Source of the DNA: an uncultured Oscillospiraceae bacterium
GTDB lineage: Bacteria > Bacillota > Clostridia > Oscillospirales > Oscillospiraceae
DNA length: 64,000 bases
NCBI GenBank assembly: GCA_944383195.1
Contig: CALWOP010000002.1
Coordinates: forward strand, 21,657-85,656
Direction: 5' to 3'
Shown here: positions 5,912 to 21,194 of the stretch, piece by piece
Position numbering within the stretch: the first letter of the stretch is position 1
Layout: every line of letters starts with the position of its first letter
The notes under the pieces: generated by a model
Database searches by the model: none
Seen by the model: the letters and a program-made list of their open reading frames with translations, nothing else
What the model was told of the DNA's origin: nothing
Made by a program: the position numbers and the translations under genes

Positions 5912-6109
5912 CTAATGTATGGAAATGATTTTTCGTTTCATGTCTGTCAATAATACAAACCGTGTCAAACGTTTCACTGTCCCCATAATTTTTTTGCTCT
6001 GCTCCTGTCTGTTTTATCCTTTGCTCTACCGCTCTCCCCCCTCAAATGTTGTATTTTTTCCTTTCATAGGTACGAATAAATGACGTTCCATCAAAATTTG
6101 AACTCCTCC

Positions 6110-6139
6110 TTGCAATCTTCTTCCCGGGTGTGGTATGCT
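6110..6139 (+). promoter_or_regulatory. sigma-A promoter of the AraR-type regulator
   Basis: TTGCAA (6110-6115), 18-base spacer, TATGCT (6134-6139), 36 bases upstream of the regulator ATG. It diverges from the kinase-araD promoter, as expected for a local repressor. Confidence 0.6.
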
Positions 6140-6175
6140 GAGCACAACAAGCGATTCCACAGGGGGGATGGGAGA

Positions 6176-7246
6176 ATGGCCCATAAGTACCGACAAGTGG
6201 CAGACGCTCTGCGCAGAGATATTCTGGATGGACTGTACGAAAAGCGTATGCTTCTGCCCACTGAGCAGGTCCTGTGTCAGCAGTTCAACGTCAGCCGCCA
6301 AACCGTGCGGCAGGCGCTCTCCCTTTTGACCTCTGAGGGCCTGATCGAACGCAGACAGGGCAGTGGCTCCCACGTGCTTCCCCGGGGCGAGGCTCCAAAT
6401 GCTCCCCGGCGAACGGTGGCAGTGGTCACCACCTATATCAGCAACTATATTTTCCCCTCTATCCTCCGGGAGATCGAAACCGTCCTGTCTGCCAACAACA
6501 GCGCCCCCACCCTCTATGCCACTCAGAACCAGGTCTCCAACGAACGGCGCATTCTCCAGTCCCTTTTGGACGGGAAGCTGCCCGACGGCATTTTGGTGGA
6601 GGGCACCAAGACCGGACTGCCCAATCCCAATCTGGACCTCTACCGTAAATTGATCAGCCGCGGGGTGCCCATGGTCTTCATGCACGGCGTATACCCCGAG
6701 CTGTCCGACTGCTTGTCCGTCCTGGATGACAATGTGGGCGGCAGCCGGCAGCTGGTGGAGTATTTATACCAAAAGGGCCACCGCTCCATTTCCGGCATCT
6801 TTAAAAACGATGACCTGCAAGGTCTTCAGCGCTACGCCGGGTACGCAAACGCGCTGCGGGATCTGGGCCTCCCCCTGGATGACCAGCGGGTATTCTGGTA
6901 CAACACAGAGAGCAAGGCCCTGCTGCTCTCTGACGATGCTTTCTGGGATCAGGCCTCCGACGTGCTCCATAACTGTACCGCGCTGGTCTGCTATAACGAC
7001 GAGATCGCTTCCCGCCTGGTCAGCCTGCTTTTGAAGCAAGGGGTCAAGATCCCCGAAGATGTGGCGGTGGTCAGCTTTGACAACAGCCCCTACAGTGAGC
7101 TCTCCGTACTTCCCATCACCTCCCTGTCCCATGAAGAACACAATGTGGGGCGCATGGCAGCCCAGCTGCTGGTCCGCCTTTTTCACGGGGAGAGCGGCAC
7201 TTCCCAGCTGGCTCCCTGGACGCTGATCGAGCGCAAAAGCAGTTAG
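6176..7246 (+). CDS. araR: AraR-type transcriptional regulator (GntR DNA-binding domain plus LacI-type sugar-binding domain)
   Basis: A 356-residue repressor. The first 70 residues form a GntR winged helix (YRQVADALRRDILDG, QFNVSRQTVRQALSLLTSEG). The rest is a periplasmic-binding-protein-like effector domain of the LacI/GalR kind, with ALVCYNDEIASRLVSLL and VAVVSFDNSP typical of that fold. This fusion is the AraR architecture of Bacillus, where L-arabinose releases DNA. The ATG at 6176 has a GGGAG site; longer in-frame versions would overlap the promoter. It diverges from the kinase-araD operon, its probable target. I could not identify a clear palindromic operator; several TGTCAA half-site-like runs lie between the promoters. 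Confidence 0.88.
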   Translation: MAHKYRQVADALRRDILDGLYEKRMLLPTEQVLCQQFNVSRQTVRQALSLLTSEGLIERRQGSGSHVLPRGEAPNAPRRTVAVVTTYISNYIFPSILREIETVLSANNSAPTLYATQNQVSNERRILQSLLDGKLPDGILVEGTKTGLPNPNLDLYRKLISRGVPMVFMHGVYPELSDCLSVLDDNVGGSRQLVEYLYQKGHRSISGIFKNDDLQGLQRYAGYANALRDLGLPLDDQRVFWYNTESKALLLSDDAFWDQASDVLHNCTALVCYNDEIASRLVSLLLKQGVKIPEDVAVVSFDNSPYSELSVLPITSLSHEEHNVGRMAAQLLVRLFHGESGTSQLAPWTLIERKSS

Positions 7247-7280
7247 CGCCGCCTCAGATCGTGCCCCCTGGACGCTCCCT

Positions 7281-7326
7281 AAAAAAACGCGCGCCGGACA
7301 AGAACTCATGGTTCTGTCCGGCGCGT
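7281..7326 (-). terminator. intrinsic terminator between convergent genes
   Basis: Imperfect inverted repeat of about 16 pairs (arms near 7287-7305 and 7311-7326) with seven T on the minus-strand side (7281-7287), so it mainly ends the leftward VWA gene. It may also stop the regulator transcript. Confidence 0.85.
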
Positions 7327-7349
7327 ATTTCATTTCGATGGCCGATTTT

Positions 7350-9101
7350 TTACAGCAAAAGCAGCGTTTCACTCAGGCGTTTTCCGGCGGAGCCGCCAAA
7401 GTCCTCCGCACGGCGGATGCGCAGGAAAGAAGTGCCATAGATCATCCGCTCATTTTCCAGCTCGTGATCCTCTCCCAAGAAGATGCCGATGATGTGCACT
7501 CCTTCCCGGCGCAGCTTTCTGACCTGGGAACAGGTATCCCGTATGGCAGCTTCTCCCACGTAGGTCTCCGGGGTGCCCGACCGCTTCCGGCCGCTCACCA
7601 TATCGTTGGGCAGGCCGTCACTGAAGACGATCACGATTTTATGGTCTTCCTTCCGCTTCAAAATTCCCTCACCCGCGGCGGCCAGTGCCAGCCCATCCCG
7701 GTTGTTGGATGTGGCCCGGTACTCCAGGATCTTCTGGTCTGCCGTGGGAGGATCATCATAATCCCGGAACCGCCGCAGAACGGTGTGGTCCCCATAGGTG
7801 CAGTAGCTCATTACCCGGTGGGGGATCTGAATGCGGCTCAATGCCGCGCTGAACAGATAGCTCTGCAGCGCCACCATGGACTGGCGAACCGCCTGTGAGC
7901 CGCTGGCATCGATGAGCAGCTCCACCACCACTGTGGATTGATCCTGGCGGAATATTTTGTGAAAGAGCTTGGGTTCCTGGCAGCGGCCCACCTTCCACAG
8001 GGAGCTGTTGTCCAATACGCCGCAGTCTGAACGGTAAATCTCCGGGTCGTTTTTCAAATTCAGCGCGTTGCGAAACGCCTGCTCTATGCTCCGAATTCCC
8101 TGTCGGGCTGCATCCTTGTGCTCCTCCAGCATCCGCAGATTTGCGTCCCGGCACGCTCTAAGGGCCTCCGCACTGGCAGCTGCCCCCTCATAGGCACACT
8201 CAGGCAGGCCGTCGGTAAACAACAGCCTGCGCCCCTCGTGTATTCCCACGCAGACGGAATTTTCCATCTCGTTGCGCTCCTGCTCGGTTTGAAAGCTGGG
8301 GCCGAAATTTCTGGCCAGATACTCCGGAATCGCCGCCAGGGCATCCTCCGGCAAGATGATCGCCTCCGCCGTGGCCGCCGTGGCCTGCTGGTACACCAAT
8401 TCCTGCTGGGGGTCCTCCGGCTGCTGGGGATCATGCCCGTCCGGGTCGGGGTGGTCCCCCTCCCACAAGTCATCCTCAGACAGTTCAAACATGGACAGCT
8501 CGTCCCGGCTGTGGTCGGGCGCAAAGTAGCGGGTAAACACCTTTTTATAAAGGAGCACAGCCACATCCACCAACGCTCTGGCATCCCCGCATTCTCCCAC
8601 CCGCTCCATCAGCTGGGAAAACAGCTCCAGCACATCCTCAAATCCGGTAAAATTCCGCAGGACCTGGCGGCTTTCCTCATTGGCCGCCTGGGGGAACTGC
8701 TTGGTCAGCCAGTAAATGGTCATCCATCCCCGGGAGGAATACCGCAGCCGCAGGGGGTCGGCCTGCAGCAGCTCCCGGGCCGCCTGTTCCCCCATTGCCG
8801 GGATCCCCGGCCGCTGAGAGGACAGTCGGCTGCGTACCGCATACTCCAGGCACAGATGGGCAATGGGGAGCAGCGTATGCATATCATAGTCGGCATACCT
8901 GTGGCGTCTGAGCCACAAATTCAGCTCGTCCAGTCCAAACAGCTTGTCTCCCCCGCCCAGAATGACGCCCTCATATACCGCGATCATTCCCTCGGCTTTC
9001 CGATACGGCTGGCTCATCATGCGAATATATTCCGGGTATTCCCGGGGCCGATGGTCCTCGGAAACAGTTAGAAACAGGCTTTCCTCTCTATCAATACTCA
9101 C
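7350..9101 (-). CDS. VWA-domain protein, partner of MoxR-type ATPase
   Basis: A 583-residue cytoplasmic protein with a C-terminal von Willebrand A domain: the metal-binding (MIDAS) motif DASGS lies in VVVELLIDASGSQ, and the later conserved Asp in IVFSDGLPND. The N-terminal two thirds are helical, with an acidic run rich in Asp and Pro in the middle. The arrangement resembles the CobT/NorD-like VWA proteins that work with MoxR/CbbQ ATPases to insert metals or remodel target enzymes. The start is GTG at 9101 after AGGAG. It begins 12 bases after the ATPase gene ends, so they form one operon. Their target enzyme is not obvious in the neighbourhood. Confidence 0.82.
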   Translation of the reverse strand: MSIDREESLFLTVSEDHRPREYPEYIRMMSQPYRKAEGMIAVYEGVILGGGDKLFGLDELNLWLRRHRYADYDMHTLLPIAHLCLEYAVRSRLSSQRPGIPAMGEQAARELLQADPLRLRYSSRGWMTIYWLTKQFPQAANEESRQVLRNFTGFEDVLELFSQLMERVGECGDARALVDVAVLLYKKVFTRYFAPDHSRDELSMFELSEDDLWEGDHPDPDGHDPQQPEDPQQELVYQQATAATAEAIILPEDALAAIPEYLARNFGPSFQTEQERNEMENSVCVGIHEGRRLLFTDGLPECAYEGAAASAEALRACRDANLRMLEEHKDAARQGIRSIEQAFRNALNLKNDPEIYRSDCGVLDNSSLWKVGRCQEPKLFHKIFRQDQSTVVVELLIDASGSQAVRQSMVALQSYLFSAALSRIQIPHRVMSYCTYGDHTVLRRFRDYDDPPTADQKILEYRATSNNRDGLALAAAGEGILKRKEDHKIVIVFSDGLPNDMVSGRKRSGTPETYVGEAAIRDTCSQVRKLRREGVHIIGIFLGEDHELENERMIYGTSFLRIRRAEDFGGSAGKRLSETLLLL

Positions 9102-9113
9102 GGTGTTCTCCTG

Positions 9114-9968
9114 TCAGACAAATCGGGTCATCACAACATCCTGAACCAGCTGATGCTCATATTCATCAAAGCATTTGTTGACGATACCCATGGCAATCGC
9201 GTCTCTGGGGCGCATTCCGTCCGTCATCAGCCGCAGCGCGGCGATCATTCCCCGCATATCCACCGGGTGGGTGGAGATCTCACCATTGACCGCTTTCTGA
9301 TCCAGGTCCAGGAACAGGCCCACGCAGCGCTCAACGTGTTCTTCCGACGCGCCAGGCACATCGGCGTGCAAAAGCTGGCGCAGCTGCTGCTCGTGGAGGG
9401 TAGGCATCCGGATCACGGTAAACCGGGACACCAGCGCCTCATTCAGCTCCCGGGTCCCCGCATAGCCATAATTCATCGTGGCGATAAAGCGGGTGGCCGG
9501 GTGCATGGGGATACACTCATAGCCAGGCACATCAATGAGCCTGCGGTAGTCCAGCACAGAGTGCATCACGGCAACGGCATCATTTTTTGCCATGTTGATC
9601 TCATCCAAAATGCAGAATCCCCCGTTCTGCGCGGCCTGGGCCACCGGGCCCTTGCGCAGGCGCACTTCTCCCCCCACGAAGGTGTCCGTCCCGATGAGGG
9701 CGCTGCTGTCTGTGTTCACATGGAAAGAGACGGTGTAGATCGGCCTGGCAAACAACCAGGCCAGGTTGTCCGCCAGGATATTTTTTCCCGTGGCCTTTCC
9801 CCCGCTGAGCAAGATATTTTCCCCCTGCAGCAGCGCGGCAACCGCCATCTCCAGAACCTCTTCGCCGATAAATTCCACGGGCGGTTTGATGGTGCGTCCC
9901 TGTACCTGATCTTGCGCGGCATAGCGCTGTTTAAACTCTTCCAGCCGAGTGGTCAGATCTTTTCTCAT
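9114..9968 (-). CDS. MoxR-family AAA+ ATPase
   Basis: A 284-residue AAA+ ATPase of the MoxR/CbbQ group. Walker A is GGKATGKN (residues 56-63), Walker B FCILDEIN, sensor 1 region ATMNYGYAG, and SRF probably holds the arginine finger. The last Walker A position is Asn where most family members have Ser or Thr. Such ATPases act as chaperones with a VWA protein, here the next gene. The start at 9968 leaves a normal N-terminus and has a GGAG site; the open frame extends to 10082, but that extension has no homology-like character. A second ATPase/VWA pair lies at 20.1-23 kb. Confidence 0.87.
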   Translation of the reverse strand: MRKDLTTRLEEFKQRYAAQDQVQGRTIKPPVEFIGEEVLEMAVAALLQGENILLSGGKATGKNILADNLAWLFARPIYTVSFHVNTDSSALIGTDTFVGGEVRLRKGPVAQAAQNGGFCILDEINMAKNDAVAVMHSVLDYRRLIDVPGYECIPMHPATRFIATMNYGYAGTRELNEALVSRFTVIRMPTLHEQQLRQLLHADVPGASEEHVERCVGLFLDLDQKAVNGEISTHPVDMRGMIAALRLMTDGMRPRDAIAMGIVNKCFDEYEHQLVQDVVMTRFV

Positions 9969-10149
9969 AGCGTTCTCCGTTTTCGCCTTTTCTCGGGCAA
10001 AAATGCCCGGATGTTCTGTTGCGGCCGCCTGGGCAGCCGGTCGTCCTGATTTGATTGTATCTTGCCCAGAAAAGCTTGTCAATGCTCTTGCGCAGTTCCA
10101 TTCTTTTGTTGTCCCACAATTCTGCCCCCACAGCCCTGTGAAGGAGACA

Positions 10150-10192
10150 AAAACGGACCTGAGCTGCGTCCTTTACGCCTCAGGTCCGTTTT
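10150..10192 (-). terminator. terminator of the sugar-regulation operon
   Basis: Arms of about 14 bases (10150-10163 and 10179-10192) around a 15-base loop, flanked by A and T runs. It sits 28 bases past the stop of the degenerate ABC gene. Confidence 0.85.
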
Positions 10193-10219
10193 CCCTCTCA
10201 AATTAAACCACACAACACA

Positions 10220-11695
10220 CTAAAGCTGCTGATAAAAGTCCACCCAGGGGGCAGTGCTGGACAAGGTAGAAAAGTCCTTACGGCTGTACACTTCATTGGG
10301 GGCGCTGCGATGGACCCGAACCAGCTGATGGGCCAGCGACAGGCTGTCCGCCAGGTTTACCGCCAGGATCACCACCCCGATCCCCTGTCCCAAAAGCCGC
10401 TCCAGATGGTTCCAGATCCGCATACGCAGCTCCATATCCGCCCCCTGAAACGGCTGAATACAGAAGACCACCTTGGGCTTTTGCAGCAGGATACGGGCAT
10501 ACACTAAATCATATTTCTGCGCCGTTGTCAGCTGCTCCGGCCAGAGCTGAAACAGCTTTGCGTCCAACAGCCCTCCACACTCCTGTTCGATCCCCCGGCG
10601 CAGCCGGGCATCGTGCCACACTCCCGGCAAACGGTGGTCCAGGGTGAAGCACAGGTTGTCCAGAACGCTCAATTCCCGCATCAGCATGGAGTCGTCCGCG
10701 TGTTCCAGCAGGATGGCGATCTTCCGGGTGTATGCCGGGGAAAACGGCTGGCCGCACAGCTCAAAATCTCCCTCTTTCAGGGGCAGCTCTCCCGTAAGCA
10801 GCGCCAGCAGATCTCCAAAAATCTGATTGTTTAGATCCTGGAGCACCACACACTCCCCCGCCCGGACGGAAAAGCTCAGATCTTTTACCATCCCCCCCGT
10901 GATATGCCTGGCCTGAAAGACGGCCTCCCCCCCGGGAGCAGGCCGTTCCCTGCGCTCCATCTGGGCCTGCACCAGGCGGTGGTAAGGCTCGCCGCAGGAA
11001 AACAGCGGCTCTCCCCGCAGCAGCACCTTGGGAATGGTGCCGTTGATCAAAAGGGCCGTCCGGTCACAGATCTCCCGGAGCTCTTCAAAATGGTAGCCGA
11101 TGTAGAGAAAGGCCACCCCCTCCCGGGCAAATCTCCGGATCACCTCATGAAGCCGGGACAGGTCCGCGTCGCTGATAAAGGTCCCCACCTCTCGCAGCAC
11201 GATCAGCCGGCAGCCCCCCAGCACAGCCTTGAGCATCTCCACTACAAACCGCTGAAAGGCGGTCAGCTTGTCCACATAGTCATCCGGGGAAAAGTCCGCC
11301 CCCAGCTTTTCCAGCACAGGCGCCAGCTGGGCCCGCAGCAGCGCGGGGCGGATCAGCCAGCTTTTAAAGCTGGGGCGCAGCACAAAAATATTGTCGGCCA
11401 CCGTCATCCCGGAGACCAGGGAGCTGCGGTTTTCGATGATGGCGATGCGCTGGGGTCCGCGGCCAGGGATCTCACTTCCCCAGGCGTTGATCTGCTTCTC
11501 CCGGTAGTATACATACCCCCGCTGCAAGGGCAGCCGGCGGCGCAGCAGGCCAAGGAGCGTGTTGAGCCCGTGGCTGTTCACCGCAAGAAGTCCCATGATC
11601 TCTCCCCGGAAAATCTGGAGATTGAAATTTTCCAGCTGCACCACGCCCTGTTCCAGACAGGTGACCCGCTCCAGGCGCAAAATCTCCTCTCTCAT
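10220..11695 (-). CDS. degenerate tandem ABC ATPase of the sugar type, probably catalytically inactive
   Basis: A 491-residue protein with the two-cassette fold of RbsA/MglA, but with every nucleotide motif lost. In the first half the Walker A loop reads VNSHGLNT instead of ENGAGKST, the signature LSVGQ-type segment reads LTAFQ, the DEPT of Walker B reads REVG, and the switch His segment SH reads GY. In the second half the P-loop reads QDLNNQIF, the signature LTTAQ, and DEPTRG reads IQPFQG. The fold-specific spacing is kept and the reading frame is intact, so this looks selected rather than decayed. It overlaps the histidine kinase stop by ATGA, implying coupled translation and a shared role. 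A regulatory or sensory role is inference; true ATP hydrolysis is unlikely. Confidence 0.8.
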   Translation of the reverse strand: MREEILRLERVTCLEQGVVQLENFNLQIFRGEIMGLLAVNSHGLNTLLGLLRRRLPLQRGYVYYREKQINAWGSEIPGRGPQRIAIIENRSSLVSGMTVADNIFVLRPSFKSWLIRPALLRAQLAPVLEKLGADFSPDDYVDKLTAFQRFVVEMLKAVLGGCRLIVLREVGTFISDADLSRLHEVIRRFAREGVAFLYIGYHFEELREICDRTALLINGTIPKVLLRGEPLFSCGEPYHRLVQAQMERRERPAPGGEAVFQARHITGGMVKDLSFSVRAGECVVLQDLNNQIFGDLLALLTGELPLKEGDFELCGQPFSPAYTRKIAILLEHADDSMLMRELSVLDNLCFTLDHRLPGVWHDARLRRGIEQECGGLLDAKLFQLWPEQLTTAQKYDLVYARILLQKPKVVFCIQPFQGADMELRMRIWNHLERLLGQGIGVVILAVNLADSLSLAHQLVRVHRSAPNEVYSRKDFSTLSSTAPWVDFYQQL

Positions 11696-12741
11696 GACAG
11701 CGCCTCCTGGTTGGGGATCTCCCGGTCGCTGGTGATGGCAGGCAGGGTGATCTCCACATCGGTGCCGCTGCCCGGAATGGAAAAGACATGAAGGCCATAC
11801 TCGCTGCCAAACAGCAGGCGGATGCGGTCATCCACATTGACCAGGGCCACGCCGCCCCGGGTCTCCCCCTCCTCCCGCACTGCCGACAGGCCGCCCCGGC
11901 CCAGCCGGCTGTTGAGGCGGGCCAGCGTCTCCGCATCCATGCCGATGCCGTTGTCAGACACCCGGATGAGCAGCCTGCGCTGGGTGCGCTCCAGATGGAT
12001 GGTGAGCCGCCCGGTGCCGATCTTCAACTCTGTTCCATGGATGATGCTATTTTCCAAAATGGGCTGCATGGTCAGCTTGGGCAGGCGGCAGCGGAAGATC
12101 TCTTCCTGATCCTCCGGGTCATACTCCACATTCAGCTCCAACCGCTCCCCAAACCGATAGCGCTGAATGCGGAAATAGGTCTGACAGTTTTGCAGCTCCT
12201 CCTCCACCGACACCAGATTTTCCACCTTGCTGATGGTATAGCGGAAAAAGGATGCCAGCGCCTCTGTCATATCCGCCACGCTGTCCAGCTGGGCAATGAG
12301 CGCCTCGCTGCGGATGCTCTCCAGCGTGTTGTAGAGAAAATGCGGGTTGATCTGATTTTGCAGGGCCAGATACTGGGCCTGCCGCTTATTGAGCTGAAAC
12401 AGCTGGGATGGGTTCATCACCGCCCGGGCCTGCTCCAGCAGCCGCTCCGTCCCCGGGCTGATGGCCGCCTGTTCCTCCTGGGCCGGATGGGAGGTATACT
12501 CCTCCAAAAAGGCCCGGATGGCCCGCTCTGTGTGGTTATAGGGGACAATGATCCAGAACCAGGCCAGCCCGGCGCAGCCGGCCAGCAGCGCCAGGCACAC
12601 CAGCAGGGCGCCCCAGGCTGTCCGGCCTGTGACTGCGCCCACCACGATCCCTGCCGCTCCGGTCAGGGCCGCCGCGCCGAATCCAGCGCCCACCCAGGCC
12701 ACACGCGCAGACAGAAACCTCAGGCGCTGATGCCAATCCAT
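11692..12741 (-). CDS. YesM/LytS-type sensor histidine kinase with minimal sensor region
   Basis: A 349-residue kinase of the His_kinase (PF06580) type. Two hydrophobic segments near residues 14-36 and 44-66 are joined by only a few residues, so there is no extracellular sensor, unlike usual YesM kinases with large outside domains. The phosphorylated His is in QNQINPHFLYNTLESIR; the N box is QPILENSIIHG and the G box SDNGIGM. It lies 36 bases after the AraC-type regulator gene and overlaps the degenerate ABC gene by ATGA. The gene pair and the missing sensor suggest that its input comes from a membrane or transporter partner. Confidence 0.88.
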   Translation of the reverse strand: MDWHQRLRFLSARVAWVGAGFGAAALTGAAGIVVGAVTGRTAWGALLVCLALLAGCAGLAWFWIIVPYNHTERAIRAFLEEYTSHPAQEEQAAISPGTERLLEQARAVMNPSQLFQLNKRQAQYLALQNQINPHFLYNTLESIRSEALIAQLDSVADMTEALASFFRYTISKVENLVSVEEELQNCQTYFRIQRYRFGERLELNVEYDPEDQEEIFRCRLPKLTMQPILENSIIHGTELKIGTGRLTIHLERTQRRLLIRVSDNGIGMDAETLARLNSRLGRGGLSAVREEGETRGGVALVNVDDRIRLLFGSEYGLHVFSIPGSGTDVEITLPAITSDREIPNQEALS

Positions 12742-12777
12742 CCCGGTTCCTCCTCTCCCCGGACCGCTTTGGTCCCA

Positions 12778-14367
12778 TCACCCATACAGCTTCCGATACT
12801 GACCAGGGCTGAGGCTGGTCACTTTTTTAAAGGTCTGATTGAAGTGCTTCAAATCGCCATAGCCCACCTGGGTGCAGATTTCCGACACCGGCAGGTTGGT
12901 CTCCTGAAGCAGCTCCTTGGCCCGCTCCATCCGCACCCGCGTCAGGTACTTGGCAAATCCCTCTCCCGTCTCCTTTTTGAAGAGCGCACTGAAATAGCTG
13001 ACGCTGAAGCCTGTGGCGGCACACACATCCTCCAGCGTGATATTCTCGCTGTAATGGCGCTGGATGTACTGCTTGGCCACCCGGATGGGCCGCTGGCTCT
13101 CATTCTCTCTGCGCTGGATGGTCCGCTCCAGCACATGGCGCTGGAACCTGTCCAGGCACAGGAACAGATCCTGGGCGCGGCTACACTGTAAGCATCGGCG
13201 CTCAAAGCCCTCCGACTCCCGCCGGGCGTCCTCTCCTCCCACCCGCAGGGCAAACAGCTTTCCCGCTGAACGCACCAGCTCCAGCAGCTCCCGGCCGCGC
13301 ACATCGGGCACCGCCATGGCGCCCTCCTCCAGCTGCCGGACCGCCTGTTCCGCCTGGGGAATCCCCAGCGTGTCCATGACCAGCTCCACACTGCGCCCAT
13401 AGCGCTCCAGCAAATTTTCCTCGGACAGCCCGGATGCGCTGGGCCGCCCCTCCAGCAGGCGGCTGTTTCCCTCCACCAGGCGTTCACACACCGCATCGCT
13501 GGCCTCCCAAAAGCTCTCAGGCAGCTCCTGGGTCCTTGTCACCGGGGTGCTCAGCCCCAGGGAGCACTCCATGGGGCCGAACAGGGAGCGCTGGGCCACC
13601 AGCTGGTTGAGTCCTTCCCGCATCCGGCTGCGCAGCGCCTCCCGCTGCTCCGGCAAAAAATTAAGTACCGCGCACCCCCATGCGTCCCGGAAGTAAAATA
13701 CGATCCCCTCGCACACCGGGCGCAGCCGTTCTTCAAAAATTTTCCTGGCTTTTTCCCAAATCACGCCCACTGAGGCCGCTGAAAACTGCTCCGGATCATA
13801 ATCCAGCTTCAACAGCATGATTTGCAGCAGGCCCGGCTTCACAGAAAAATGGTATTCCCGGGCCAGCAGTTCCGCTGTGGGGGCCTCCAGCCTCCGCTCC
13901 GCCAGGTCCAGGATCAGCCGGTTGCGCAGGCGGAACAGATCCTCCTGGCTATATTCCCTCAGCTGTCCCGCCTCACGTTCCGCCCCCTGCCGGGCACGGC
14001 AGCGGTCCCCCAGCTTTTTCAGCGTGGCCATCAGCTCCTGCTTTTGAATGGGTTTGAGCAGATAATCCCCCACCCCGTGCTTGATGGCGCTCTGGGCGTA
14101 TTCAAAGTGGGCATAACCGCTGATGATCACGATCTCCAGCTGGGGCAGCTCCTCTTTTGCGTGCTGGATCAGCTCCAGACCATAACAGCCTGGCATCCGA
14201 ATGTCGGTGATGAGGATGTCCGGCCGGATCTTTTTCACCAGTTCCAGCGCCTCCAGCCCGTTTGAGGCGGTGCCCGCCACCTCCATGCCCAAAGCTTCCC
14301 AATCGGCCAGCACCTGCACCAGGCGGCAGACCCGCTCCTCATCATCCGCGATGATCACTTTGAGCAT
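12778..14367 (-). CDS. YesN-type response regulator (receiver plus AraC helix-turn-helix)
   Basis: A 529-residue regulator. The N-terminal receiver has acidic residues IIADDEE, phospho-acceptor Asp in ILITDIRMPG, and Lys in YLLKPI. The middle 300 residues are a poorly conserved linker, typical of this family. The C-terminus holds the AraC double helix-turn-helix (CAATGFSVSYFSALFKKETG and EICTQVGYGDLKHFNQTFKK). It probably binds direct repeats upstream of the sugar importer and catabolic genes after phosphorylation by the kinase encoded next. The start at 14367 has a GAGGAG site about 10 bases upstream. Confidence 0.9.
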   Translation of the reverse strand: MLKVIIADDEERVCRLVQVLADWEALGMEVAGTASNGLEALELVKKIRPDILITDIRMPGCYGLELIQHAKEELPQLEIVIISGYAHFEYAQSAIKHGVGDYLLKPIQKQELMATLKKLGDRCRARQGAEREAGQLREYSQEDLFRLRNRLILDLAERRLEAPTAELLAREYHFSVKPGLLQIMLLKLDYDPEQFSAASVGVIWEKARKIFEERLRPVCEGIVFYFRDAWGCAVLNFLPEQREALRSRMREGLNQLVAQRSLFGPMECSLGLSTPVTRTQELPESFWEASDAVCERLVEGNSRLLEGRPSASGLSEENLLERYGRSVELVMDTLGIPQAEQAVRQLEEGAMAVPDVRGRELLELVRSAGKLFALRVGGEDARRESEGFERRCLQCSRAQDLFLCLDRFQRHVLERTIQRRENESQRPIRVAKQYIQRHYSENITLEDVCAATGFSVSYFSALFKKETGEGFAKYLTRVRMERAKELLQETNLPVSEICTQVGYGDLKHFNQTFKKVTSLSPGQYRKLYG

Positions 14368-14401: not shown

Positions 14402-15361
14402 TCAGCGCTGCTCCCTCATACTCTCAAGCACCGTCTCCAGGTCCGGAATACTGGGGATGCCGCCCGGCGCCTGGGTGGACAGGCTGGCGGCTGTGGCGGC
14501 GAACCGGGCCACATACTCCAGCTCCTCCCGCTCCAGCTGTGCCGGTTCCCGGCCCAGCTCCAGCAGCCGGCTGACGGCGCTGCCGCCGAAGATATCCCCC
14601 GCTCCAGTGGTGTCCACCGGGGTCACCTTGGGGCCCCGGACGGAAACACTGGCCTTTCCATTGCTCAGGTAGCAGCCCTCCGGCCCCCGTGTGACCATGG
14701 CCAGAGATACCCCATGTTCCTCCAGCAGACGGCTGGCCCCCTCTTCCGGGCCGCACCCCCACAGGAAGTCCACCTCGTCATCGCTGATCTTTACCACATC
14801 CGCCTGACTAAGCCCCCACAGGATCTCCTGCCGGGCCTGCTCCAGATCGGGCCACAGGGGTTTTCTCAGGTTGGGGTCAAAGGTGATCCGCTTGCCCCGC
14901 TCCCGGGCATAGGCCACCGCTTTCCGGGTGGCGGTACGCACCGGCTCGTCCGTCAGGCTCAGGGTGCCGAAATGGAAGACCTTGGCCTGGTCCAGAAGGG
15001 ACAGATCCAGCTCCTCAAAGCGAAGCTGGGTATCCGCTCCGGGCTTGCGGGCAAAGCTGAACGAGCGCTCGCCCCCCTGGTCAAAGGTGACAAAGGCCAG
15101 GGTGGTAAATACCCCCGGGTCCAGCAGCAGGCCCCGGGTCTCAATACCGGCCTGTTCCAGTGTGCCCTGGAGCAGACGGCCAAAGGCGTCCTCTCCCACC
15201 TTGCCCAAAAAGGCAGTCTTGGCCCCGTATTTGCTCAGCGCCGCCAGAAAATTGCAGGGGGCTCCGCCGGGATGGGCCGCCATGGTGGGGTATCCGTCTC
15301 CATCCGTCTCCCGGGCGGCGAAATCAATGAGCAGTTCCCCCAGGGCCACTACATCAAACAT
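14402..15361 (-). CDS. PfkB-family sugar kinase (fructokinase-like)
   Basis: A 319-residue ribokinase-family kinase. It opens with VALGELLIDFA, has the substrate-side motif GGAPCNFLAALSKYG, and the C-terminal ATP and catalytic-base motif VDTTGAGDIFGG (catalytic Asp). Closest in pattern to fructokinases. It follows the isomerase gene by 12 bases after an AAGGAGG site. If the isomerase makes D-fructose from D-mannose, this enzyme would give fructose 6-phosphate; if it makes D-xylulose from D-lyxose, xylulose 5-phosphate is expected instead. The substrate is not fixed by sequence. Confidence 0.88.
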   Translation of the reverse strand: MFDVVALGELLIDFAARETDGDGYPTMAAHPGGAPCNFLAALSKYGAKTAFLGKVGEDAFGRLLQGTLEQAGIETRGLLLDPGVFTTLAFVTFDQGGERSFSFARKPGADTQLRFEELDLSLLDQAKVFHFGTLSLTDEPVRTATRKAVAYARERGKRITFDPNLRKPLWPDLEQARQEILWGLSQADVVKISDDEVDFLWGCGPEEGASRLLEEHGVSLAMVTRGPEGCYLSNGKASVSVRGPKVTPVDTTGAGDIFGGSAVSRLLELGREPAQLEREELEYVARFAATAASLSTQAPGGIPSIPDLETVLESMREQR

Positions 15362-15373
15362 TCTATTTCCTCC

Positions 15374-16060
15374 TTATTCCTTCGCTGCCGGATATTCGTT
15401 GCACAGCAGGCGGTAGGGCGGTTCATCCTCCTCAATGGCGGGAAAACGGCCCAGCTTCTCATAAAAGCGGTTGTCCGTGTTGTCGTCGTTGCACTGGCTC
15501 ACCTCGCCCAGCAAAACAGGACCGCTGCCAGGTTCCACCTCAAAGTCGTGATAGAGGTAGGGATAGATGGTGATGCTCTCCCCCGGCGTCAGCCGGACCT
15601 GGGTACCCGCGGGGACCACCATCTCCCGGCCGTCCACATGGACATGGACATCGCTCACCTTGTCCAGGTCCTCGTCGGGCGTGGAGTTGTAGACCCGGAT
15701 GAGTACGTTGCCGCCGCCCCGGTTGATGATATCCTCCATCTTGGACCAGTGGAAGTGCATGGGGGAGTACTGGCCCTCCTTGATGTACAGCAGCTTTTCC
15801 GCATAGGTCTTGGTGTACTTGTCCATCTTCAGATTGCCGTTGCGGATGGTAATGAGGGAAAATCCCATTTTGTCGAAATTACCCATCCCGTAGTCGGTGA
15901 TGTCCCATCCCAGCATATTGTCCCGGATCTCATCATAGTCGTGTCCCTTCTCCTGCCACTGCTCGGGGGTGAACTGGCAGAAGGGAGGCAGGGCAAAGCG
16001 GTACTCCCGCACCATCTGCTCCATCTCTTTCAGGGCGGCGTTGATCTCACTGCGTTTCAT
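15374..16060 (-). CDS. D-lyxose/D-mannose isomerase-like cupin
   Basis: A 228-residue single-domain cupin of the D-lyxose ketol-isomerase family. The metal site is visible as MHFHWSKMEDI (His-x-His and Glu) with a later His in YPYLYHDFEV. Characterised members interconvert D-lyxose and D-xylulose and also D-mannose and D-fructose. The ATG at 16060 follows AGGAGG; the ATG at 16087 has none. It is the first gene after the importer genes and has its own promoter (16103-16131), so it and the genes down to 10220 can be expressed apart from the importer. Confidence 0.87.
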   Translation of the reverse strand: MKRSEINAALKEMEQMVREYRFALPPFCQFTPEQWQEKGHDYDEIRDNMLGWDITDYGMGNFDKMGFSLITIRNGNLKMDKYTKTYAEKLLYIKEGQYSPMHFHWSKMEDIINRGGGNVLIRVYNSTPDEDLDKVSDVHVHVDGREMVVPAGTQVRLTPGESITIYPYLYHDFEVEPGSGPVLLGEVSQCNDDNTDNRFYEKLGRFPAIEEDEPPYRLLCNEYPAAKE

Positions 16061-16102
16061 TTGGATGACCTCCTGTCTGGTCGGCAAGTTCTACTGCCTG
16101 TT

Positions 16103-16204: not shown

Positions 16205-17188
16205 TTACTTGGTCAGCACAGAGACGCCGGTGTCGGTGACCGCGCCGCCCAGGTCCTCGCCGTTGATGGCGGCCACGGCAGCCTTTACGCCCTCATAGCC
16301 CATCACATCGGGGTTCTGAGCCATGGTGCACAGCAGGTAGCCGTCGTTGATGAGGTTCAGGATGGCGTCGGACTTGTCGAAGCCCACACCGATGATCTCG
16401 GTCTTGCCGGAGGCCTTGATGGCGTTGCCGATGCCGGTGGTGGAGCCCTCATTGGCGCCGAAGATTCCTACAACGCCCTGGGTGATGAAGTTCTCAGCGC
16501 TGGACTGGCTCTTGGCAGCGTCGCCGTCGCAGTACTGGGTCTCCAGGATGTTGAACTCGGTGCCCTCAAAGGCGGAGCGGAAGCCCTCCTCACGCTTGAC
16601 GCAGGAGTCGGTGGCGGCGTTGACGTTGATGACGCCGATATCGCCGGAGGTCACACCCGCATCGGTCAGGGCCTTGAGCATCTCCTCGCCGGCCTTCTTA
16701 CCAGCGGCGGCGTTGTCGGTGGAGAAGGTAGCCACGGCGTCCACATTGGCGGGAGAGTCCACATAGACGATCTTCACGCCGGCGGCGGCAGCCTCTTTCA
16801 GGGCGCCGGAAATGGCGTCGGGGCCGTTGGCGGCCACCAGGATGGCGTCATAGCCGCCGGCTACCGCGTTGTTGACTTGCTCGATCTGGAGGGCGTCGTC
16901 CTTGGTGTTGGGGGCCATGAAGTCCACAGTCACACCCAGCTCCTGGGCGGCCTTCTGGGCGCCCTCGTTCAGGGTGACCCAGTGCTGGTCAATGGAGTCC
17001 ATGGTGATCAGGGCGATCTTGGCATCAGAGCCGGCGGGGGTGCTGGAAGCAGCCTGGGAGCCGGAAGCGGCCTGAGAGCCGGAGCCGGCGGGCGCGCTGG
17101 AGCCGGAGTTGGTGTTGGACCCACAGCCGGCCAGCAGGCCGATCCCCATCGCCAGACAGCAGGTCAGGGCAAGAAGCTTCTTTTTCAT
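16205..17188 (-). CDS. sugar ABC transporter substrate-binding lipoprotein (ribose type)
   Basis: A 327-residue exported lipoprotein. The signal peptide ends in lipobox LLAGC, so Cys22 is the anchored residue. A Ser/Gly/Ala-rich linker of about 30 residues follows, then a type I periplasmic-binding fold (Peripla_BP_4) with IALITMDSIDQHWVTLNEGA, GYDAILVAANGPDAI and a late GVGFDKSDAIL typical of RbsB-like proteins. The ligand is a monosaccharide, probably a pentose or hexose handled by the isomerase and kinase that follow. It lies third in the importer operon, 68 bases after the permease gene. Confidence 0.92.
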   Translation of the reverse strand: MKKKLLALTCCLAMGIGLLAGCGSNTNSGSSAPAGSGSQAASGSQAASSTPAGSDAKIALITMDSIDQHWVTLNEGAQKAAQELGVTVDFMAPNTKDDALQIEQVNNAVAGGYDAILVAANGPDAISGALKEAAAAGVKIVYVDSPANVDAVATFSTDNAAAGKKAGEEMLKALTDAGVTSGDIGVINVNAATDSCVKREEGFRSAFEGTEFNILETQYCDGDAAKSQSSAENFITQGVVGIFGANEGSTTGIGNAIKASGKTEIIGVGFDKSDAILNLINDGYLLCTMAQNPDVMGYEGVKAAVAAINGEDLGGAVTDTGVSVLTK

Positions 17189-17256: not shown

Positions 17257-18270
17257 TTATGATTTGCTCCCCTTGCGGCTGAGCAGGCCCTTGCGGAACA
17301 CCACATCCAGCAAAACCGCGAAGACCACGATGATGCCGATCACGATGCGCTGGATTCCCACGGGGGCGTGGATGATGCTCAGGCCGTTCTCCAGGGTCTG
17401 CCACACGGCAGCGCCTGCCAGGGTGCCCAGCAGCAGGCCGGTACCGCCCAGGGGGGACACGCCGCCGATGACGCCGGCGGCCACGCCGTACATCTCATAC
17501 ATATTGCCGGCTTCCATATTGCCCATGCCGGCCTGGGCGCACAGGATGAGGCCCACCACGCCCGCACAGAAGGCGCTGACCAGATAGGTCTTGGTCACCG
17601 TGGTGACCACACTGACGCCGGAGAGCTTGGCCGCGTCCACATTGGAGCCGATGGCGTAAATGTGCCGGCCGGTGCGGGTCTTGGACAGCAGGAAGAAGAA
17701 AATCAAAAACAGGATCAGCGCGATCCAGAACGTGTTGTACACCCCGGCGGTGGAGCCGTAGTAGAAGAAGTTCTGGAAGGCATCCGCCGCCTCTTTCCCG
17801 ATGCCGGAGGAGATGGCGTTGGTGTTGCGGTTGCCGTTTACCATGTAGGCAATGCCACGGGCCACAAACATGGTGCCCAGCGTGGCAATGAAGGGCGGCA
17901 GCTTAAACTGGCCCACCAAAAATCCGTTGATCAGGCCCACCACCAGGCAGCACAGCAGGGTGATGAGAATGGCCAGCACCGGGTTTACGCCTGCCACCAT
18001 CAGCGTGGCGGAGGTCATGGCGCTCATGCCCACCACAGAGCCAATGGACAAATCAATGTTGCCGGTGATCAGCACATAGCTCTGGCCGATGCCGATCAGC
18101 AGGTATTTGGACATGGAGCGCAGCAGGTTCATAATGTTGGCGCCGGAGAACATGGTGCGGTCGATCAGGCCGAAAGCGATGTAGATCACGATCAGTCCGG
18201 CAAAGGCGGTCAGGGCCGCCCCCATGCCCCGGACGCTGAGAAAGCGCGGGGTTCGTTTTGTTGCGTTCAT
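17257..18270 (-). CDS. sugar ABC transporter permease (ribose type)
   Basis: A 337-residue permease of the BPD_transp_2 (RbsC) family with about nine hydrophobic segments. The family pattern YVLITGNIDLSIGSVVGMSA and the coupling region GRHIYAIGSNVDAAKLSG are clear. It would form a homodimer with the tandem ATPase encoded upstream. The ATG at 18270 has a GGGAGG site; the start at 18315 would overlap the ATPase gene. The gap to the ATPase gene is 13 bases. Confidence 0.93.
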   Translation of the reverse strand: MNATKRTPRFLSVRGMGAALTAFAGLIVIYIAFGLIDRTMFSGANIMNLLRSMSKYLLIGIGQSYVLITGNIDLSIGSVVGMSAMTSATLMVAGVNPVLAILITLLCCLVVGLINGFLVGQFKLPPFIATLGTMFVARGIAYMVNGNRNTNAISSGIGKEAADAFQNFFYYGSTAGVYNTFWIALILFLIFFFLLSKTRTGRHIYAIGSNVDAAKLSGVSVVTTVTKTYLVSAFCAGVVGLILCAQAGMGNMEAGNMYEMYGVAAGVIGGVSPLGGTGLLLGTLAGAAVWQTLENGLSIIHAPVGIQRIVIGIIVVFAVLLDVVFRKGLLSRKGSKS

Positions 18271-18283
18271 TATTCTTCCTCCC

Positions 18284-19807
18284 TCATTCCGCCGCGGCGG
18301 CGATCTTGCTTTCAAATTTGGTCGCCAGGGTCAGGATCTCGTTCTGCGTGGTCTCCCGGGCCATGACTTCCCCGGTGATCCGTCCATCGCACATGACGAT
18401 GATCCGGTCCGCAATGCCCATGACCTCCGGCATTTCCGAGGAAACAAACATCACCGCGATGCCCTGCTGCTTGAGGTGGTTCATCAGATTGTAGATCTCC
18501 ACCTTGGCCGCCACGTCGATCCCTCGGGTGGGCTCGTCAAAAATCACCACTCTGGAATTTCGGGCCAGCCACTTTCCCACGACCACCTTTTGCTGGTTTC
18601 CGCCGGACAGGTTGCCCGCGTCAATGTCCACACCCGGCGTTTTGATCTTCAGATCCTCCACCGCCTGCTGGCACATGGCGTCCTCCTTCTGGCGGTTCAC
18701 CACCCCCAGGGGGCCGCACAGCAGATCCAGGTTGGGCAGGGCAATATTGTGCCGGATGGAGAGCTTGGTGCAAAGGCCGTCCTTTTTCCGGTCCTCCGGC
18801 GCCAGCACGATGCCCGCCCGGATGGCATCCTGGGGCTTGTGGATGGTGACGGGCTGGCCGACCAGGATCAGTTCCCCACCGTCCTTTGGGTCCACGCCGA
18901 AAATGGCTCGGGTGGCCTCGGTGCGCCCGGCTCCCATCAGCCCGGCAAAGCCCACGATCTCTCCCTCGTACAGGTCAAAGCTCACATCCCGGACCATCCG
19001 TCCGGCATTGAGATGCTTCACTTCAAAAATCTTTTTCCCTTTCTCGCAGGTCACCCGGGGGAACTTCTCCTTGATCTCCCGGCCCACCATATGGGCGATG
19101 ATCTCATCCATGGTGGCGTCCTTAAAGTTCATGGAGGTGATGTACTGACCGTCCCGCATAATGCTGACCCGGTCCACAATGTGCTGCAGCTCTTCCAGGC
19201 GGTGGGAGATATAGATGATCCCGTAGCCGCTCTCTTTCAGCTGCCGGATGATCCGAAACAGCTCGTCAATTTCCTTGGAGGTGAGGGCGGAGGTGGGCTC
19301 ATCCATGATGAGGATTCGGGCCTTGGTGGACAGGGCCTTGGCAATTTCCACCATCTGCTGCTTGGATACCGGCAGATCGCCCACCACCTGGCGGGGGTCA
19401 ATGTCGATTTTCAGCTCATCCAGCACCCGCTGGGCCTCGCTCTCCATCTCCCGGTTGGCCAGGACCATGCCCCGGCACGTTTCCCGGCCCAGAAACATAT
19501 TTTCAGCCACCGACAGGTGGCGGCACATATTCAGCTCCTGGTGAATAATGGCCACCCCGATCTCCTGGGCCTGTTTGGGCGTCAGATCGCCGTATTCCCG
19601 GCCAAAGATCTCCATCGTGCCCGAATCCCGGGTGTACACGCCGCTTAAAATTTTCATCAGGGTGGATTTCCCCGCGCCGTTTTCTCCCAGAAGGGCCAGC
19701 ACCTCTCCCGAACGCAGCTCCAGCTGAACATTGTCCAAAGCCTTCACGCCCGGGAACGTTTTGCAAATGCCTTTCATGGAAACGATGGTCTCATTCATAT
19801 CCTTCAC
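18284..19807 (-). CDS. sugar ABC transporter ATP-binding protein (RbsA/MglA type)
   Basis: A 507-residue tandem ABC ATPase with intact motifs in the first cassette: Walker A GENGAGKST, LPVSKQQMVEIAKAL signature region and Walker B LIMDEPTSAL. The second cassette has GLMGAGRTE in place of a standard P-loop, as is usual for this family, an LSGGNQQKV signature and DEPTRGID. It energises uptake by the permease encoded next. A GTG start at 19807 fits the AGGAGG at good spacing better than the ATG at 19798. It is first in the importer operon. It serves as a control for the degenerate homologue at 10220-11695, where all these motifs are missing. Confidence 0.92.
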   Translation of the reverse strand: MKDMNETIVSMKGICKTFPGVKALDNVQLELRSGEVLALLGENGAGKSTLMKILSGVYTRDSGTMEIFGREYGDLTPKQAQEIGVAIIHQELNMCRHLSVAENMFLGRETCRGMVLANREMESEAQRVLDELKIDIDPRQVVGDLPVSKQQMVEIAKALSTKARILIMDEPTSALTSKEIDELFRIIRQLKESGYGIIYISHRLEELQHIVDRVSIMRDGQYITSMNFKDATMDEIIAHMVGREIKEKFPRVTCEKGKKIFEVKHLNAGRMVRDVSFDLYEGEIVGFAGLMGAGRTEATRAIFGVDPKDGGELILVGQPVTIHKPQDAIRAGIVLAPEDRKKDGLCTKLSIRHNIALPNLDLLCGPLGVVNRQKEDAMCQQAVEDLKIKTPGVDIDAGNLSGGNQQKVVVGKWLARNSRVVIFDEPTRGIDVAAKVEIYNLMNHLKQQGIAVMFVSSEMPEVMGIADRIIVMCDGRITGEVMARETTQNEILTLATKFESKIAAAAE

Positions 19808-20135
19808 CCGTCCCCCTCCTATAGCATATTACCGAATCTCGCTTTTCTACATTATACATTTTTGTCATTGTGCATAAAAGTGGGGATTCTTTTGATTTAG
19901 GTGGGGTTTTTTATGGTCTTTGCCGGGATCACATTTTCTCCCCCCTTAGGCAGACAAATTCCCCCTCCTTTCGCTTTGTCCCCTGTATGAGGGCTTCATA
20001 AATCTTCATTCCCATATTCAGAATTCTTCAGCTTATCTTCCTTGCTCCCCAACAGGCCTACAAGGTATAATGAACCACATTGTAAAAATCCTGCGTTGGC
20101 CGCCCGCCAGCGCCCAAAAGGAGTGGAGCACCACT
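19808..20135. promoter_or_regulatory. divergent promoter region between sugar importer and ATPase gene
   Basis: Leftward, a TATAAT (complement at 19851-19856) lies 44 bases before the importer GTG but has no good -35 element, which fits a promoter needing activation, plausibly by the AraC-type regulator. Rightward, TTGCTC (20042-20047), 18-base spacer and TATAAT (20066-20071) precede the ATPase ATG. I see no gene here. Confidence 0.6.
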
Positions 20136-21194
20136 ATGAACCTTACCATTACCGTCAATCACAAGCAGCTGCTGGACATTCTCTTAAACGTAGGCCTTGA
20201 GCGCCCGGTTTTTATCTGGGGGGCGCCCGGCATCGGGAAGTCCGCCATCGTGCAGGAATTTGCCGACAGCCTGGGGCTGGAGTGCGTCTCCCTCCTGGGC
20301 AGCCAGCTGGCCCCGGAGGATATCATCGGCGTGCCCCAAATCCGGGACGGCTTCAGCGAGTTCTGCCCGCCCCGGTCCATCGCCCGGCAGGAGCCCTATG
20401 TGCTGTTTCTGGACGAGCTGAACGCCTGCACCTCTGAGGTGCAAAAGGCCTTTTACTCCCTCATCCACGAGCGGCGCATCGGTGAATATCATCTCCCCGA
20501 GGGCTCCATCGTTCTGGGGGCGGGCAACCGCGCCCAGGACAACGCCATCACCCGGCCCATGTCCTCCGCCCTCATCAATCGGATGTTTCATGTCGAGCTG
20601 ACCGCCAGCCCCCGGCTGTGGCTGGAATGGGCCGCCCAGGCCAACATCCACCCCTATGTCTACGACTATATCACCAGCCGGCCCGATCATCTGTGGTCCA
20701 AGCCCCCCAAAAGCGAAGAGCCCTTCTCCACGCCCCGCTCCTGGCATATGCTCAGCGACGCCATCCACAGCTACGGCCCGGACGTGAGCCTGGACAGCCT
20801 TCGCGTTCTGGCCTGCGGCTGTCTCAGCCCCCAGCACGCCACTCAATTTCTGGCCTACCTGCGCCAGGTGCGCAGCCAGTACGCACTGGACAAAATCTTG
20901 TCCGGCGAACAGCCCTGGCCGGACAAGCCTGAGGAGCGCGACGTGCTCTACTTCCTAGCCCAGTCCCTGCGGGCACGCCTGGTCAAAGAGCTGCCCTCTG
21001 AGCGGGGCAAACTCAGCGCCGACAGTCGGGCGCTGGTGCTCCAGGCCAAGGATCGCATCACGGAGCTGGCCGATCTCAGCCTGGAGATCGCCCGGATGGC
21101 GGTGACGCCCGAAGACGGCAGAGAGCTGCCCGACTGGTTTGTGGTGGAGCTGTTCCGGGACCTGCCCCGCCTGGCCGACAAGCGAAACGGATGA
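20136..21194 (+). CDS. AAA+ ATPase of the MoxR-like (AAA_5) type
   Basis: A 352-residue ATPase with Walker A GAPGIGKS (residues 29-36), Walker B VLFLDELN, and sensor 1 region AGNRAQDN followed by INRMF. The C-terminal part is helical. The start at 20136 has AAAGGAG some 12 bases upstream; the open frame begins at 20070, inside the -10 element. It overlaps the next gene by ATGA, so the two proteins are made together. Such ATPases paired with VWA or metallopeptidase-like proteins are thought to remodel or load metal into client proteins. Confidence 0.85.
   Translation: MNLTITVNHKQLLDILLNVGLERPVFIWGAPGIGKSAIVQEFADSLGLECVSLLGSQLAPEDIIGVPQIRDGFSEFCPPRSIARQEPYVLFLDELNACTSEVQKAFYSLIHERRIGEYHLPEGSIVLGAGNRAQDNAITRPMSSALINRMFHVELTASPRLWLEWAAQANIHPYVYDYITSRPDHLWSKPPKSEEPFSTPRSWHMLSDAIHSYGPDVSLDSLRVLACGCLSPQHATQFLAYLRQVRSQYALDKILSGEQPWPDKPEERDVLYFLAQSLRARLVKELPSERGKLSADSRALVLQAKDRITELADLSLEIARMAVTPEDGRELPDWFVVELFRDLPRLADKRNG

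Follow-up and report, generated by a model that had tools for sequence, protein, structure and literature searches.

A tandem ABC ATPase without nucleotide motifs as the putative third component of a sugar-sensing two-component system

What does a histidine kinase sense that has two membrane helices and almost no outer part, and why is its gene followed by that of an importer ATPase in which every nucleotide motif is lost? Both questions are raised by a locus at positions 10220-14367 of a 64,000-nucleotide stretch of contig CALWOP010000002.1 (assembly GCA_944383195.1, from an uncultured Oscillospiraceae bacterium), called here the window, where a degenerate ATP-binding cassette (ABC) ATPase of the RbsA type, named pABC, lies behind a YesM/LytS-type kinase and a YesN-type response regulator. 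No input is known to us for short YesM-type kinases that lack an outer domain. The reading favoured here, with a probability of roughly 0.68, is that pABC would be the input or adaptor subunit of the kinase, a third obligate component of a sugar-sensing two-component system. A sequence-only reading of the same DNA had proposed that pABC binds the importer permease or the kinase and passes on the state of transport or ligand to the regulator; that interpretation is partly supported as a whole, with the binding to either partner and the relay of transport or ligand state keeping the rank of proposals. The features in question are as follows.

10220..11695, minus strand: pABC, a tandem RbsA-like pseudo-ATPase of 491 amino acids (aa) with an ATG start; frame intact, both halves without any nucleotide motif
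11692..11695, minus strand: ATGA, in which the kinase stop overlaps the pABC start; preceded by AGGAGG
11692..12741, minus strand: sensor-less YesM/LytS-type histidine kinase of 349 aa; His_kinase and HATPase_c domains, AlphaFold2 model
12778..14367, minus strand: YesN-type response regulator of 529 aa with an AraC-type helix-turn-helix; Response_reg and HTH_18 domains

The full-length tandem fold of an RbsA-type importer ATPase is present in pABC. The protein aligns with the RbsA of the window (18284-19807) over 489 columns with 23% identity (2e-33) and matches the XylG, AraG and RbsA models near full length with 97-112 bits, the model cut-offs being 689-745. Its AlphaFold2 model has a predicted local distance difference test score (pLDDT) of 88.7 and a predicted template modelling score (pTM) of 0.83, and seven of the first eight rows of a Foldseek search with this model are tandem DppD/OppD chains, with a template modelling score of 0.72-0.76 by query length for DppD. 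The motifs of the nucleotide sites are replaced in both halves. Read as RbsA of the window against pABC, half 1 has GENGAGKST against AVNSHGLNT, IHQE against IENR, LPVSKQQ against LTAFQRF, ILIMDEPT against LIVLREVG and YISHR against YIGYH, while half 2 has GLMGAGRTE against DLNNQIFGD, APEDR against LLEHA, LSGGNQQ against LTTAQKY, VVIFDEPT against VVFCIQPF and VSSE against LAVN. Alignment, motif reading and the intact open reading frame thus bear out what had been claimed from the sequence alone, namely RbsA-type fold spacing, loss of motifs in both halves and an undamaged gene whose ATG overlaps the kinase stop.

The same loss is found throughout the relatives. An alignment-based scan of species representatives (GTDB 220) found 99 relatives, and the analysis covers the 80 best loci among them; these do not equal 80 genomes, L059 and L112 being in one assembly, and alignment A3 holds 62 sequences, 61 of the 80 and that of the window. 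The half-1 motif GxxGxGK[ST] is found in 0 of 81 aligned pABC members against 61 of 61 RbsA rows from the loci, and SGG in signature 2 has the same counts (0/81 against 61/61). The second Walker B acid is kept in none of the 81, and the position of the half-2 catalytic Glu is occupied by Gln in 75 of them. The intact composite ATP site that a functional RbsA-type ATPase requires, which is made of Walker A1, Walker B1 and signature 2, is therefore absent from the family. The half-1 Walker A Lys is retained in 18 of the 81 members, and nine of the 81 (L080, L081, L082, L084, L085, L087, L088, L090 and L115) have this Lys together with the Walker B Asp-Glu, the partner signature being gone; judged from these residues, residual nucleotide binding is possible in the nine. 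Loss of the second Walker A lysine is not special to pABC, because ordinary RbsA (GLMGAGRTE) already has no lysine there, and B. subtilis RbsA is likewise without it in the excerpt of PMC11466899.

Conservation in pABC has moved away from the former nucleotide sites. The two most conserved windows of 12 residues are the following.

11375..11410, minus strand: pABC codons 96-107 (GMTVADNIFVLR), the most conserved window, directly behind the former half-1 Q-loop
10637..10672, minus strand: pABC codons 342-353 (LSVLDNLCFTLD), the second most conserved window, at the equivalent half-2 position

In RbsA the windows equivalent to these rank only 115th and 184th of 480. The Walker A loops show the reverse, with a near invariant sequence in RbsA (entropies of 0.03 and 0.06 bits) and values of 2.01 and 2.29 bits in pABC, above the protein mean of 1.89. 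In ABC importers the groove behind the Q-loop takes the coupling helix of the permease, and from established importer structures we take the two windows to be the coupling-helix groove positions of pABC; their conservation would fit docking to a membrane partner. The next most conserved windows lie at the former half-2 H-loop, the half-1 signature helix and the half-2 Walker B, and windows 405-416, 439-450 and 393-404 are within the top eight. In codons 405-450 (10346-10483), the former half-2 Walker B and H-loop now read FCxQPFxGAD and LAVNLAD, two new motifs with strong conservation.

The gene is under purifying selection. The ratio of nonsynonymous to synonymous substitution rates (dN/dS) of pABC is 0.052-0.162 in 18 of 19 pairs (one is saturated), similar to the values for kinase and regulator and without the relaxation that is expected of a pseudogene, and 79 of the 80 fetched members read at least 450 aa before a stop or contig end. 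Dead ATP sites together with purifying selection indicate that selection maintains pABC for a function outside the ordinary ATPase cycle. Recent decay, with intact motifs in close orthologues, is ruled out, no orthologue read having intact motifs; of the results that the sequence-only reading named as refuting it, neither neutral substitution rates nor intact motifs in close orthologues have thus occurred. The origin of pABC as a remnant of a recent local rbsA duplication was also considered and is countered by a quick tree, in which pABC forms one clade (98 in the Shimodaira-Hasegawa-like approximate likelihood ratio test, SH-aLRT) outside the clade of locus RbsA proteins (SH-aLRT 100). The deep placing in this tree is unsure because of long branches, and four rows from the own genome with very long branches, which may be wrongly read frames, are not relied on.

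The kinase offers little to the outside. Its AlphaFold2 model has membrane helices at 10-38 and 43-79 with an outer loop of about four residues, as had been foreseen from the sequence alone (mean pLDDT 78.8, 88-93 within the helices, pTM 0.58). The catalytic boxes are kept: H134, N138, N231, D263, G265 and G267 are invariant over the 52 rows of alignment A4, which consists of 51 of the 67 kinases of suitable length and that of the window. Kinase and regulator have the features of a YesM/LytS-YesN pair, with His_kinase and HATPase_c domains bearing the catalytic residues and a response regulator with an AraC-type helix-turn-helix. The outer loop is variable and the cytoplasmic juxtamembrane motifs are conserved. 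Before helix 1 stands YLSxR (Y 68%, L 75%, S 77%, R 94%), which is FLSAR in the window; a regular expression for this N-terminal motif is matched in only 53 of 76 kinases, the aligned column of R13 being 94% conserved. Conserved positions behind helix 2 are P67, Y82, P96 and a Gly at column 81, where the window has Glu.

This kinase accompanies pABC almost without exception, which answers to the expectation that the ATPase always sits next to a short YesM-type kinase. The kinase gene lies at most 333 nucleotides (nt) upstream of pABC in 78 of the 80 loci; in the remaining two the contig breaks off 274 and 2 nt ahead of pABC. The distance from kinase stop to pABC start is -4 in 44 of these 78 pairs. 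The regulator is upstream in 75 of 80 loci, with four of the misses cut by contig ends and one (L107) in a scrambled locus. Among 60 related genomes pABC is found in nine at an expect value of 1e-40 or better, and the kinase (1e-45 or better) in exactly these nine, the own genome included in both counts; all 15 further pABC genomes queried hold the kinase. Genome G690, where pABC and kinase are on different contigs, is the single exception and is taken up below.

Carriers of the module belong to several families, and to more than one class, of the phylum; gut and anaerobic Clostridia are among them. Because searches at the family, class and phylum levels scored only 3-5 candidates in each genome, the numbers that they give are minima. 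At least four of 300 genomes sampled from the taxonomic family hold pABC, the own included. The class-wide search of 391 genomes gives at least 13 full members (375-679 bits, own included) and then a score gap down to the next match at 235 bits, with a pABC fragment at a contig end in G378 (232 bits); 16 further loci read below the gap have RbsA motifs, L149 being read in its second half only. In 398 genomes of the phylum at least seven pABC genes are found, five of them new (two with one stop counted inside the match), and all five new loci have regulator and kinase upstream of pABC and RbsA downstream. Named cultures among the best 80 of the 99 relatives are Clostridium symbiosum, Hespellia stercorisuis, Lacrimispora celerecrescens and Caproiciproducens species.

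Co-variation points in the same direction. In a crude test with tree distances, made on 57 and 56 loci in which all genes are long enough, the partial correlations (from the 56 loci, as means of 60 random subsets of 30) are 0.46 for pABC and kinase (standard deviation 0.07) and 0.37 for pABC and regulator. Since pABC tracks the kinase in these distances, it is taken as the probable input or adaptor subunit of the kinase. A correlation of 0.34 between kinase and RbsC, which in a split over all loci is 0.57 for the cytoplasmic part of the kinase, is not built on, because the value for this part falls to 0.14 and 0.11 within each architecture.

The third side of the locus is the importer. As the sequence-only reading had noted, a ribose-type importer and sugar enzymes lie upstream, and the transcription order on the minus strand is RbsA, RbsC, RbsB, D-lyxose isomerase family protein, PfkB kinase, YesN-type regulator, YesM-type kinase, pABC. 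The genes before the module are these.

14402..15361, minus strand: PfkB-family sugar kinase (domain and family matches)
15374..16087, minus strand: D-lyxose isomerase family protein, Lyx_isomer (family match, 1.5e-102)
16205..17188, minus strand: RbsB-type sugar-binding protein (domain and family matches)
17257..18270, minus strand: RbsC-type permease (domain and family matches)
18284..19807, minus strand: RbsA with intact motifs, start GTG at 19807 or ATG at 19798 (family matches, motif reading)

Of the 80 fetched stretches, 69 contain at least one RbsABC gene and 62 contain RbsC. Eighteen loci have no RbsC in the stretch; 17 genomes of these were queried (the eighteenth locus, L038, lies outside them), and 16 hold RbsC elsewhere at 1e-70 or better. 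In the 60 related genomes RbsC is found at 1e-90 in eight, seven of which also have pABC. The position of rbsA varies, being ahead of the module in 39 of 56 compared loci and behind it in 17. The sampled locus RbsA proteins form one clade (14 rows of the quick tree), so the module accompanies one importer lineage. Judged from the isomerase and kinase genes, D-lyxose, D-mannose, a ketose or another pentose or hexose may be the substrate, the isomerase being detected at the cut-off in only 16 of 80 fetched stretches. A related importer (RbsC 58%) with isomerase stands at L191 (G013, 6545-10958) without regulator, kinase, pABC or promoter repeat, and the repeat was not found in G013.

The promoter of rbsA would link the regulator to the importer. 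Its elements in the window are two.

19851..19856, minus strand: TATAAT, presumed -10 box of the rbsA promoter (sequence reading)
19873..19906, minus strand: direct repeat with CCCC half-sites at 19903-19906 and 19882-19885, 21 bp apart; presumed response-regulator site, matrix score 27.3

Upstream regions of rbsA share this direct repeat of C-tracts about 21 bp apart, with the consensus CCCCCnTAAATCnAAAnnnnCCCCCCTT and TATAcT downstream. It was sought in 59 upstreams (58 loci and the window) that have a long RbsA and 320 nt ahead of the gene. The strict pattern is present in 41 of 59 (mean of 1.9 and maximum of 5 in 50 shuffles) and in one of 18 control upstreams of other RbsA genes. A matrix built from the 41, which include the window site, scores 16.0-29.9 in 17 of the other 18; sites with a score of at least 15 are found 89-158 nt ahead of rbsA in 58 of 59 upstreams, whereas 20 shuffles of the 59 give on average 0.05 such upstreams and never more than 1. 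In the window the next best place scores 14.1 and the best of five shuffled windows 15.1. Of 60 loci with a long rbsA, 53 have a score above 20 ahead of this gene, six of them with two neighbouring matches; two of the seven loci without such a score, L047 and L112, have only 154 and 99 nt of upstream. Elsewhere in the 1.32 Mb of the 80 loci such scores occur in three places, one of them before the L107 rbsA fragment, and in 73 kb of 17 control loci (which include L142, a pABC fragment) there are none. Importer stretches were also fetched for six cases in which the module stretch has no RbsC: the repeat is present in L211 (28.9), L209 (17.4) and L210 (16.2), and L208 and L193 end short of the promoter. 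In L211 and L209 the repeat precedes importers on a different contig from the module. The conserved direct repeat would close the regulatory circuit and gives new support to the reading of a selected pseudo-ATPase tied to a sensor-less kinase and an importer, which linkage counts and dN/dS also uphold.

The mechanism that we propose starts from an RbsA paralogue that would have been repurposed as pABC and would no longer bind or burn ATP in the way of RbsA. Its part would be that of a cytoplasmic input or adaptor to the sensor-less kinase. The two coupling-helix grooves most likely hold a membrane partner, which may be the juxtamembrane segments of the kinase, RbsC, or both; candidate contact segments of the kinase are YLSxR before helix 1 and P-Y...G-Y after helix 2. 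The conformation of pABC, which would depend on whether sugar-loaded RbsB is at work on RbsC, would determine the kinase output; the kinase would phosphorylate the YesN-type regulator, and we infer that rbsABC is switched on by regulator bound to the 21-bp direct repeat. With consecutive genes on one strand, as in the window, this induction would also raise the module itself.

Several observations weigh against this reading or parts of it. The partial distance correlations of pABC with RbsC (-0.08, standard deviation 0.12) and with RbsA (0.09, standard deviation 0.12) give no support for docking to the permease. Part of the groove conservation may belong to the fold, because the segment behind the Q-loop is partly conserved across ABC importers in general, and the well conserved former site 2 (405-416 and 439-450) would equally suit a new ligand pocket. 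RbsC has no match at 1e-70 in the genome of L107 and none at 1e-90 in G001 and G003, which hold pABC; the contig ends near the locus in G001, and the locus is broken in G003. Two loci, L107 and L114, have a shortened or split kinase frame. L110 has no repeat (score -0.7), and none was found in L158, the most diverged module (best score 10.8), or in the L212 stretch, where the RbsA match begins at residue 197. To these is added the separation of pABC and kinase in G690, which keeps regulator, kinase, RbsABC and promoter repeat (score 24.3) together at another place with the kinase beside rbsA. The loci concerned have features of their own: L157 of G690 (9115-10563) has pABC alone in a 19.9-kb stretch without kinase, regulator or RbsABC; L212 (G1129, 3478-4392) has an RbsA match limited to residues 197-501 with RbsC behind; and L033 of G003 (about 8700-12400) has a split regulator, a split pABC, a truncated isomerase and no RbsABC match in the stretch, a state consistent with decay after importer loss.

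Other explanations place pABC differently. It may replace RbsA on the RbsC dimer; the resulting RbsB-RbsC-pABC complex would be a non-transporting receptor with ATP-free signalling to the kinase, a possibility that we hold tentatively and as clearly less probable than the adaptor role. Like RbsA, pABC is one tandem chain, its groove windows are the most conserved, and RbsC is in 62 of 80 stretches and elsewhere in 16 of 17 other genomes queried; the B. subtilis importer is modelled as RbsA1-RbsC2-RbsB in the excerpt of PMC11466899. The absence of a pABC-RbsC distance signal beyond shared history argues against such a receptor, as do G001, G003 and the genome of L107. If instead pABC were a cytosolic ligand sensor with the kinase as sole partner, the former second nucleotide site (FCxQPFxGAD, LAVN, QKYDLVYxR) would now be a pocket for a sugar or sugar phosphate. 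This is slightly less probable again: windows 405-416, 439-450 and 393-404 are in the top eight for conservation, Gln stands in place of the Walker B Glu in 75 of 81 members and pABC tracks the kinase and not the permease, but conservation at site 2 may be structural, the pocket is a candidate, and the conserved coupling grooves would be partnerless unless they hold the kinase.

Linkage and selection would look the same if pABC were not the input but a brake that keeps the kinase or the permease inactive as long as sugar is lacking, or that tunes the assembly of the importer. Bce kinase and ABC transporter restrain each other in the excerpt of PMC10314905. Nothing in the present analysis separates input from brake, but a brake alone would leave the kinase without any input, and we consider it unlikely. 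That pABC still binds nucleotide or hydrolyses ATP through a changed site is very improbable. The half-1 Walker A Lys is indeed kept in 18 of 81 members, and in nine also the Walker B Asp-Glu, but GxxGxGK[ST] and the partner signature are absent from all 81, conservation of the Walker A loops is gone, and in the window pABC both the Walker A Lys and the Walker B acids are missing from their positions. Least credible, with next to no probability left to it, is a decaying pseudogene or operon passenger. Single copies do decay, that of G003 being broken (split pABC and regulator), that of G025 incomplete and that of G094 interrupted by an internal stop near its end; for the family, dN/dS of 0.05-0.16 refutes this explanation and rules out a frameshift artefact, and members of at least 450 aa in 79 of 80 cases, the one-to-one occurrence with the kinase and the retention of pABC away from the operon in G690 also speak against it. 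The role of pABC as input or adaptor subunit of the kinase, with a putative contact between the two, is the reading that we retain.

The surroundings of the sugar locus are of other kinds. It is bordered by two pairs of an AAA_5 (MoxR-like) ATPase and a VWA-type protein, at 7350-10082 on the minus strand and at 20070-22969 on the plus strand, the second pair having a DUF2201 putative metallopeptidase domain. At 6080-7246 on the plus strand lies a regulator with GntR-type DNA-binding and LacI-like sugar-binding domains. No regulatory RNA is found in the window at the gathering threshold.

If the proposed role is true, pABC is an ABC-class pseudoenzyme with a defined signalling role, and the family gives a way to annotate proteins that automatic pipelines likely call sugar importer ATPases. 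One conserved and dedicated partner, a promoter site and a fitting importer go with this kinase, in cultured bacteria as well, which makes the question of its input directly testable. The wider proposal, for which we see even chances, is a new class of transport-coupled sensing: a duplicated importer motor, stripped of its ATP chemistry, would be a cytoplasmic receptor subunit through which a sensor-less kinase reads the state of the importer, or its substrate, independently of ATP, in members of several families and of at least two classes of the phylum, and the importer would be controlled through one conserved DNA repeat. A dead RbsA paired with a kinase was not found described in the open-licence literature, which is weak evidence of absence.

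Among known systems, RbsA-type ATPases share with pABC the whole length, tandem layout and fold, and pABC differs from them by its lost motifs and by conservation moved to the coupling grooves. In UhpB-UhpC a transport-deficient transporter paralogue is the receptor of the kinase; UhpC is a membrane carrier, of another class than pABC. In XylFII-LytS-YesN of Clostridium beijerinckii, a LytS/YesM-type kinase and a YesN-type regulator reportedly work for an importer encoded nearby and have recruited a paralogue of one of the transporter components. The likeness lies in three-component sugar sensing with a recruited transporter paralogue; the paralogue there is reportedly an extracellular sugar-binding protein on an extracellular kinase domain, whereas the pseudo-ATPase here is cytoplasmic and stands beside a kinase with hardly any outer part. 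The Bce kinases belong to another family than the YesM-type kinases and share with the present one the design of two helices and a minimal outer loop. The active BceAB-type transporter is absent from this locus, where the neighbouring ATPase is RbsA-like with lost motifs, a separate dead ATPase beside an importer with intact motifs. In the excerpts of PMC10314905 and PMC6978683, BceAB-BceS of Firmicutes is a module in which a kinase without dedicated sensing domain reads an ABC protein and drives transporter gene expression; BceA is an active ATPase, signalling requires ATP binding or hydrolysis, and the substrate is an antimicrobial peptide. CuaDSR of Ruminiclostridium cellulolyticum, in the excerpt of PMC10384115, has a binding-protein paralogue, kinase and regulator that control an ABC importer operon, and CuaD binds CuaS, which has a large extracytosolic section and helices at 30-49 and 316-339. 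The same paper cites the XylFII-LytS-YesN work as its reference 27. As described in that excerpt (PMC10384115), CuaDSR includes no ATPase paralogue, whereas the third component here is an ATPase paralogue, and the outer loop of about four residues leaves no extracellular kinase domain on which a binding protein could act. Binding-protein paralogues recruited to kinases and Bce kinases that read active ABC transporters are thus known, and what the present locus would add to them is a dead ATPase as the third component.

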